From Parvibaculum lavamentivorans DS-1 (GTDB taxonomy: Bacteria; Pseudomonadota; Alphaproteobacteria; Parvibaculales; Parvibaculaceae): a stretch of DNA of 64,000 bases. Below are positions 20,533 through 24,697 of the stretch, piece after piece; the first letter of the stretch is position 1, and the number at the start of each line of letters is the position of its first letter. The position numbers and the translations under genes are program-made. The stretch lies in contig NC_009719.1 in assembly GCF_000017565.1 (NCBI RefSeq), positions 744,001-808,000 on the forward strand. Reading direction: 5' to 3'. The notes under the pieces were generated by a model, which saw only the letters and a list, made by a program, of their open reading frames with translations, made no database searches and was not told the origin of the DNA.

Positions 20533-20571
20533 AAAACAAATGTCATCCCGGCGAAAGCCGGGACCCATTGG
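20533..20571 (+). repeat. REP-like palindrome, copy A
   Basis: A hairpin unit with the core CCCGGCGAAAGCCGGG (GAAA tetraloop), preceded by an A-rich tract and GTCAT and followed by ACCCATTGG. It is in the convergent gap between mutY and ccrM, facing copy B in inverted orientation. Variants of the same unit are at 24311 and 24648. Confidence 0.85.
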
Positions 20572-20647: not shown

Positions 20648-20684
20648 TTGGGTCCCGGCTTTCGCCGGGATGACAATTTTATTT
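20648..20684 (-). repeat. REP-like palindrome, copy B (inverted)
   Basis: Reverse-complement copy of the unit at 20542, identical through GTCAT, the CCCGGCGAAAGCCGGG core and ACCCA. On its own strand it is also preceded by an A/T-rich tract. Copies A and B enclose 77 bp with no gene, and may act together as a terminator for the two convergent genes. Confidence 0.85.
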
Positions 20685-24264: not shown

Positions 24265-24300
24265 GAGATTATTTTCTGTGCTGATTGCTGTTTTCCGACA

Positions 24301-24339
24301 AAAACAGAATGTCACCCCGGCGAAAGCCGGGGTCCATGG
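24301..24339 (+). repeat. REP-like palindrome, copy C
   Basis: Unit with core CCCCGGCGAAAGCCGGGG, preceded by AAAACAGAAT and GTCA and followed by TCCATGG. It ends two bases before the stop codon of the GIY-YIG gene and mirrors copy D on the other side. Confidence 0.88.
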
Positions 24340-24341
24340 GC

Positions 24342-24629
24342 TTATCGGTTCAGCGTTTCGGTGAGGTCGTTCCACTCCGGATTGGCGCCTTCGATCAGTT
24401 CGATCTTCCAGTCGCGCTTCCATTCCTTGAGCGCCTTTTCCCTTCGGATGGCCTGCTCCGCGTCGTCATGCGTTTCGGCATAGACGAGACGATGCACGCC
24501 GTATTTTCTGGTGAACTGCGAGCCGGTTCCCTCGCGATGCTCCCATGCGCGCCGTGCGATGTCGTTCGTCACGCCGACATAAAGGGTACCGTTTCTCTGA
24601 TTGGTGAGGATGTAGACGAAGTAACTCAT
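24342..24629 (-). CDS. Small GIY-YIG nuclease-domain protein
   Basis: 95 residues from the ATG at 24629; a GTG at 24647 would add six residues. A single GIY-YIG domain: YFVYILTN and TLYVGVTNDIARRAWEHREG contain the two motif strands and the catalytic arginine, and the C-terminal NPEWNDL supplies the glutamate/asparagine end. The small family is common in alphaproteobacteria and its function is unsettled. It is bounded exactly by inverted copies of a hairpin repeat (24311-24339 and 24648-24674), so it looks like a unit that moved or was duplicated with its repeats. Confidence 0.88.
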   Translation of the reverse strand: MSYFVYILTNQRNGTLYVGVTNDIARRAWEHREGTGSQFTRKYGVHRLVYAETHDDAEQAIRREKALKEWKRDWKIELIEGANPEWNDLTETLNR

Positions 24630-24646
24630 CTGTTTGCCGTTCCGCA

Positions 24647-24684
24647 CATGGACCCCGGCTTTCGCCGGGGTGACACTCTGTTTT
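24647..24684 (-). repeat. REP-like palindrome, copy D (inverted)
   Basis: Reverse-complement copy of the unit at 24301, including the AAAACAGA lead-in (seen here as TCTGTTTTT). It covers the start-proximal side of the GIY-YIG gene. Copies C and D are more similar to each other than to A and B. Confidence 0.88.
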
Positions 24685-24697
24685 TAGTTCCGCGTAT

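Follow-up and report, generated by a model that had tools for sequence, protein, structure and literature searches.

Why should a small nuclease gene lie between two mirror-image copies of the same hairpin? The question is raised by a locus of Parvibaculum lavamentivorans DS-1 in a 64,000-nucleotide stretch of DNA (called the window below, meaning the whole stretch that was analysed), where two identical 27-nt palindromes, TGTCACCCCGGCGAAAGCCGGGGTCCA, bracket a GIY-YIG nuclease gene in mirror orientation, their tags pointing outward. The first-pass annotation had likened this layout to RAYT transposase genes bordered by REP sequences, with a GIY-YIG nuclease in place of the Y1 transposase, and had supposed that such a nuclease may help to spread or maintain the repeats. 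The features concerned are as follows.

20541 to 20567, plus strand: REP with the same core, left half of a gene-less inverted pair (REPIN-like)
20649 to 20675, minus strand: REP with the same core, right half of the gene-less inverted pair
24300 to 24308, plus strand: A-rich lead-in AAAAACAGA, outside the left REP
24310 to 24336, plus strand: CGTC-type REP on the 3' side of the GIY-YIG gene; 8-bp stem, GAAA loop, CCA tail, tag outward
24342 to 24629, minus strand: GIY-YIG nuclease gene, 95 aa from the ATG at 24629; PF01541 at E 4e-17
24647, minus strand: GTG, an alternative start of the GIY-YIG gene that would give 101 aa
24649 to 24675, minus strand: REP on the 5' side of the GIY-YIG gene, same sequence as the 3'-side REP in mirror orientation
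24677 to 24685, minus strand: A-rich lead-in AAAAACAGA, outside the right REP

The palindromes that the annotation had placed near both gene ends are indeed there in mirror orientation, the left one ending 5 bp from the stop codon (24342-24344) and the right one 19 bp from the ATG, and the lead-in it had reported at both is present on each outer side. With up to three mismatches allowed, the core occurs four times in the window (mean 0.32 and maximum 2 in 100 shuffles); a scan of the window for tag, hairpin and CCA tail returned the same four copies only, five block shuffles giving 0, 0, 0, 1 and 0.

These palindromes are CGTC-tagged REPs. They carry a CGTC or TGTC tag at one end and a CCA tail at the other, have a stem of 8-9 bp with a loop of 4-5 nt, and are arranged in the genome mostly as head-to-head (tag-outward) dimers; the same tag, stem, loop, tail and dimers, frequent in alphaproteobacteria, characterize the CGTC-REP superfamily in the part of its description available to us (Di Nocera et al. 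2013, PMC3733652). The exact core is found 72 times in the single-contig genome of 3,914,745 bp, and its reversed control not once. Neighbouring cores no more than 500 bp apart form 21 tag-outward, one tag-inward and seven same-strand pairs. Among the 21, the two cores around the window gene are 338 bp apart and those of the other 20 pairs 55-137 bp; such short inverted pairs take in 40 of the 72 copies, and one of them adjoins the genome's second GIY-YIG gene, for which the REP on the right is the distal member of a REP pair. An A-rich lead-in is a general feature of the genome's core copies: the 17 nt before the tag position contain 46% A (first 30 of the 72 cores), against 18% in the window. 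A GTCAT or GTCAC tag stands on 26 of these 30 cores, the normal tag being missing from four. The REPs come in a 27-nt form (stem 8, loop 4) and a 30-nt form (9 and 5), with the ATTGCGAG type longer and outside this fit. Hairpin pairing is kept through double changes at nine of nine positions, a count in which only the double changes are informative because the hairpins were pre-selected for pairing. Elsewhere in this genome (C1:973659-974373), three same-strand cores spaced 354 and 345 bp apart have an odd 5' part, with CCTGT for GTCAT, and look like a small tandem array.

The nuclease gene itself is not the 'lone' gene it had been taken for. Six matches to its protein occur in the genome. Inverted palindromes stand within 200 bp on either side of five of them; none accompany the sixth, which is distantly related. 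The REP types at the five paralogues differ (CCCCGGCGAAAGCCGGGG, CCCGGCGAAAGCCGGG, CCCGGCACTTGTTGCCGGG, CCCCCGGGCTTGACCCGGGGG and ATTGCGAG...GCAAT), sharing an outer (C/T)GTCA and an inner CCA. The predicted model of the window protein (mean pLDDT 92) and its sequence are closest to two solved UPF0213 structures, 1zg2 and 1ywl, followed among fold matches by Slx1 and, further down, I-TevI, E being below 0.001 for the first match only. Seven residues (Y6, Y17, G19, R27, H31, E64 and N83 in the 95-aa numbering) are invariant in 54 sequences and are putative catalytic positions of the GIY-YIG domain.

How general is this association? A search of 27 Parvibaculum genomes gave 61 genes above 80 bits, in 20 genomes, plus a low-scoring group. 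Counting as a mirror repeat any pair scoring 17 or more, with flanks allowed to run 80 nt into the open reading frame (ORF), we found one at 57 of the 61 genus genes, at 61 of the best 80 named loci and at 21 of the best 30 loci of the class; the corresponding counts are 0 of 24 for the low-scoring GIY-YIG genes and 16 of 344 for other ORFs at the same loci. The named and class sets are best-scoring matches and no random samples; the former takes in three loci named Parvibaculum (L145, L146, L207) as well as L144, which is almost a duplicate of one of the genus genes, and two loci of the latter overlap with the genus set. Left out of the 24 low-scoring genes was L114, which is bordered by another repeat and is the single positive of an earlier count with narrower flanks (55 of 61 genus genes versus 1 of 25 low-scoring genes). 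L117 (frameshifted, 56 bits) and L118 (a fragment) were also set aside, though both have mirror repeats, and so was one contig-edge locus. REP tags being shared, upstream and downstream flanks taken from different genomes also reach the threshold of 17, in 91 of 387 pairings; the more suitable control is given by neighbouring ORFs.

A REP-bordered nuclease gene is thus a general pattern. The family is found at E 1e-15 or better in 123 of 385 genomes of the class, and the named loci extend to beta- and gammaproteobacteria and to bins labelled Nitrospira, Omnitrophota and Planctomycetota, labels that may be wrong for single metagenome contigs. Two outcomes would have spoken against the annotation's idea: repeats no commoner near such genes than elsewhere, and relatives with the gene that lack the repeats. 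Neither prevailed. Of the 568 cores in the 27 genomes, 31 are no further than 250 bp from such a gene, where about 0.3 would be expected (neighbourhoods of about 49 kb in about 91 Mb, by arithmetic from rounded sizes), and just four of the 61 genus genes are without mirror repeats (L041, L066, L070, which scores 16, and L098).

Some loci met in the survey deserve separate mention. L114 (G001:C2:19444-19722, read with 1.5-kb flanks) is a GIY-YIG gene of another subgroup between mirror copies of GGCCTCGTCCTTAGAGACGG...CTCAGGATGAGG, a repeat different from the CGTC REPs, so that nuclease-repeat pairing may reach further. On plasmid p1 of the cyanobacterium Planktothrix agardhii (L302), a relative of the nuclease sits between a type IIL restriction gene and the DISARM gene drmA, flanked on either side by TGTCATTCTGAG repeats. 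Three records filed under plasmids, NZ_CP119140.1, NZ_CP119142.1 and NZ_AP026896.1, are of chromosome size (2.2 Mb and 4.9 Mb).

Does each nuclease have its own REP? Protein distance and REP distance are correlated among 57 genus genes (Mantel r 0.69) and among 81 genes outside the genus (r 0.38), with none of 2000 permutations as high in either case. Paralogue pairs inside one genome, for which host ancestry is constant, still give r 0.65 (71 pairs). When paralogues of other genomes are compared, the one nearest by protein has the nearer REP in 662 comparisons and not in 230, with 23 ties. Nine clusters built from protein sequence alone, a number picked after the REPs were seen, largely separate the REP types. 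Two of the groups have a common GAAA core and differing tails; the REP attributed to L087 is an unrelated one lying nearby, and no REP was extracted for four other genes. Linked inheritance of a gene and its flanking REPs explains part of this co-divergence.

REP copies away from the genes also follow the matching clade. For the four REP types tested in 27 genomes, with copies within 250 bp of any such gene removed, copies are commoner where the matching clade is present (A1, p 0.005; A2, 0.012; B, 0.004; C, 0.020), and shuffling the clade labels within genomes reached the observed sum in 2 of 20000 trials. The clades of a first version of this test had been named with the REPs in view; the values just given come from its repeat on protein-only clusters and without gene-near copies, and are weaker (p 0.004-0.02). 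Type C copies rise also with the non-matching clades A1 and B (p 0.022 and 0.017), the window's own genome has six type B copies and no clade B gene, and genome G011 has 28 cores without a matching clade. Genome G012, given as 100% complete, holds 55 cores but lacks such a gene, and G002, which possesses one, holds just four cores. Cognate pairing of nuclease clade and REP type is well supported, and this specificity is a stronger result than what the annotation had put forward.

The comparison of empty sites in relatives, which the annotation had suggested, shows cassettes present or absent at orthologous positions. Downstream of the radical-SAM gene beside the window's cassette, the nuclease gene occurs in 8 of 24 genomes read. 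G002 has REP-gene-REP there; G018, whose flanks are closely similar, has one symmetric palindrome with both outer tags, and G024 has a palindrome like that of G018. Symmetric palindromes of the window's REP type number 25, in 14 of the 27 genomes, the window's own genome having none. At a second site, downstream of a thioesterase gene, 12 of 23 genomes read are informative: G000 and G016 carry the cassette; G006, G009, G011 and G012 a gene-less pair; G002 and G023 a symmetric palindrome; G003, G005 and G021 nothing. In G017 most of the gene is missing from the cassette and its first codons are left between the REPs; because the pair keeps the start of the gene, the gene-bearing form came first at that site. 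The other 11 genomes show other REP types, other sequence or a contig end. Flanking DNA sorts the 61 genes into 41 clade-and-site groups, with 14 same-site pairs across clades.

The radical-SAM site is occupied by clade 7 in some species and clade 9 in others. In G005 it holds two tandem nuclease frames (L127), the second interrupted and no intact REPs alongside, which are apparently decaying.

Similar differences are seen outside the genus. The sufB-sufC gap of Azospirillum lipoferum 4B measures 617 bp and consists of a REP pair, the gene and a second REP pair, so that the gene lies between two pairs and outside either; the gap is 91 bp in A. ramasamyi, 87 bp in A. oryzae and 129 bp in strain B510, relatives 96.5, 95.3 and 94.7% identical to 4B. 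On pSymB of Sinorhizobium meliloti, a 5'-truncated nuclease copy between REPs adjoins an intact one. Sinorhizobium sp. K101, whose DNA to either side is about 95% identical, has neither copy; one symmetric palindrome lies there between outer flanks matching those of the truncated copy. Symmetric palindromes and internal deletions could also arise by slippage between short repeats without any nuclease.

The reading that we favour, and consider fairly probable, is that of a REPtron-like unit in which a GIY-YIG nuclease stands in place of the Y1 enzyme, cuts its own REP and helps REP pairs to persist or disperse. REP-nuclease-REP would be the gene-bearing member of a REP family. The nuclease would recognize the hairpin of its own REP type, most likely when it is met in single-stranded DNA, as in the lagging-strand template or incoming DNA, and its cuts would favour the survival and dispersal of the REP pairs. 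REPINs, the inverted pairs that lack a gene, would be the non-autonomous form, some of them produced by internal deletion of the gene, and the single symmetric palindromes may be either collapsed remnants or targets. GIY-YIG enzymes hydrolyse DNA and we know of none that rejoins it, so a host polymerase, recombinase or ligase would have to complete the reaction. We infer mobilization of the REPs from comparative evidence. Several points count against the favoured reading: the orphan cores of G012, the core counts of G011 and G002, the four bare genes among 61, the 230 contrary comparisons, the rise of type C with two non-matching clades, the A. lipoferum layout, and the slippage and linked inheritance mentioned above.

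Could the nuclease act on the REPs without spreading them? A relative in a Neisseria gonorrhoeae record, 51.7% identical over query residues 1-89, is surrounded by dRS3-like CGTC repeats, CCGTCATTCCCGCGCAGGCGGGAATCTAG copies (CCGTCATTCCCGC...GCGGGAATCTAG) standing on either side. This makes it a candidate member of the Ssn family of single-stranded DNA nucleases. A paper of 2025 is said to have given the neisserial enzyme this name, as a single-stranded DNA nuclease with specificity for a repeat of this kind, and the Ssn family of Neisseria reportedly cuts these repeats and modulates transformation. Ssn is a small stand-alone GIY-YIG protein; so is the window protein, which is homologous to the neisserial frame. 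With this link the pairing as such is less novel, and cutting of the flanking hairpins by the window's enzyme becomes more likely; the REPtron layout, the REPINs and the site polymorphism are those seen here in alphaproteobacteria. The window's enzyme might then be an Ssn-like site-specific nuclease of single-stranded DNA that serves mainly to cut repeat-bearing DNA and so tunes, for instance, DNA uptake or genome stability, the REPs being its substrates and marks and spreading by other means. The gonococcal relative (52% identity) with repeats on both sides and the activity reported for Ssn make this a possibility worth keeping, if a rather doubtful one: alone, it leaves unexplained both the REP-bounded cassettes present or absent at orthologous sites and the copy numbers that follow the matching clade.

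A homing-like parasite would exploit an older repeat family, its nuclease cutting gene-less REP or REPIN sites and repair copying the gene in. Classical homing endonucleases are found among GIY-YIG enzymes, as far as the portion of the literature available to us goes; the cassettes lie between inverted REPs, families of orphan REPs exist without a gene (G012), and the symmetric palindromes at cassette sites could be targets instead of remnants. However, GIY-YIG homing endonucleases have NUMOD domains and reside in introns, inteins or phages, whereas the 95-aa window protein, in which the domain search reported PF01541 and an overlapping PF10544 match only, and no NUMOD or other targeting domain, is encoded in an intergenic REP setting without intron, intein or phage. 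REP types, moreover, follow protein clades, and the gene-bearing form came first at the G017 site. The idea that the gene had inserted into a REPIN spacer already present was rejected, since no spacer halves were seen by eye around the gene in the cassettes read. We regard the homing reading as unlikely.

Chance is far less plausible still. Small genes might simply fall into REP-rich intergenic space, the palindromes serving as terminators or mRNA stabilizers; REPs are mostly intergenic in the available part of the 2013 survey (PMC3733652), and 537 of the 568 cores lie away from such genes. However, tagged hairpins stand on both sides of 37 of 61 genus genes, 38 of 80 named loci and 16 of 30 class loci, whereas 3 of the 344 control ORFs and none of the 24 low-scoring GIY-YIG genes have them, and it is on these neighbouring-ORF and low-score controls that chance nesting was rejected. 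Tags also point outward more often than inward (left/right 37/40 versus 7/12 of 60 in the genus, 48/43 versus 10/19 of 78 named loci, 18/19 versus 7/9 of 30 class loci), and REP types match protein clades.

The comparison with RAYTs is closer in layout than in chemistry. In RAYT/REPIN systems as described in the parts of the sources available to us, inverted REPs border the gene, the REP type fits the protein and inverted pairs are the repeated unit, as they are here. RAYTs are Y1 tyrosine transposases (PF01797) with GTAG-tagged REPs, whereas the window unit has a GIY-YIG hydrolase (PF01541) and GTCA-tagged REPs of the CGTC type; its inverted REPs fit the protein clade, and neither a Y1/HUH transposase of PF01797 nor the GTAG tag is found with them. 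As an analogy of layout, the annotation's proposal holds, with mirror repeats at nearly all genus genes. That a RAYT elsewhere mobilizes these REPs, as proposed for GTAG-tagged ones in the portions available of two papers (Bertels and Rainey 2011, PMC3116915; PMC2817692, presumably Nunvar et al. 2010), is hardly credible, PF01797 being absent from this genome and present in 1 of the 27 of the genus (the positive control gave matches in 5 of 14 reference genomes), which contradicts such mobilization for the genus at the level of this model, and no tyrosine transposase gene flanked by CGTC sequences having been found according to the available part of PMC3733652.

That part of the paper by Di Nocera et al. 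describes CGTC REPs as present in all orders of alphaproteobacteria, without a dedicated transposase and perhaps heading for extinction, and equates the neisserial dRS3 with CGTC-1 REPs; the term GIY-YIG does not occur in it. A literature search over titles and the beginnings of abstracts gave no link between GIY-YIG and REPs among the matches listed. Here, REP types of this supposedly transposase-less superfamily go with particular nuclease clades. Repeats stated in 2013, in that same part of PMC3733652, to have no dedicated enzyme thereby gain in the cognate nuclease a partner open to testing. Such a nuclease also offers a reason for the coexistence of several REP types within a genome, and it connects the dRS3-like repeats of Neisseria with this system. 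We see roughly an even chance that CGTC REPs are mobile elements driven by a GIY-YIG nuclease, which would make them a second, independent form of REP/REPIN mobility, working by hydrolytic cutting of hairpins in single-stranded DNA and without tyrosine transposition. If the enzyme drives their spread, a hydrolytic nuclease would do what was thought to need a Y1 transposase, and one may expect many sequence-specific hairpin nucleases, the target of each readable from the flanks of its own gene.
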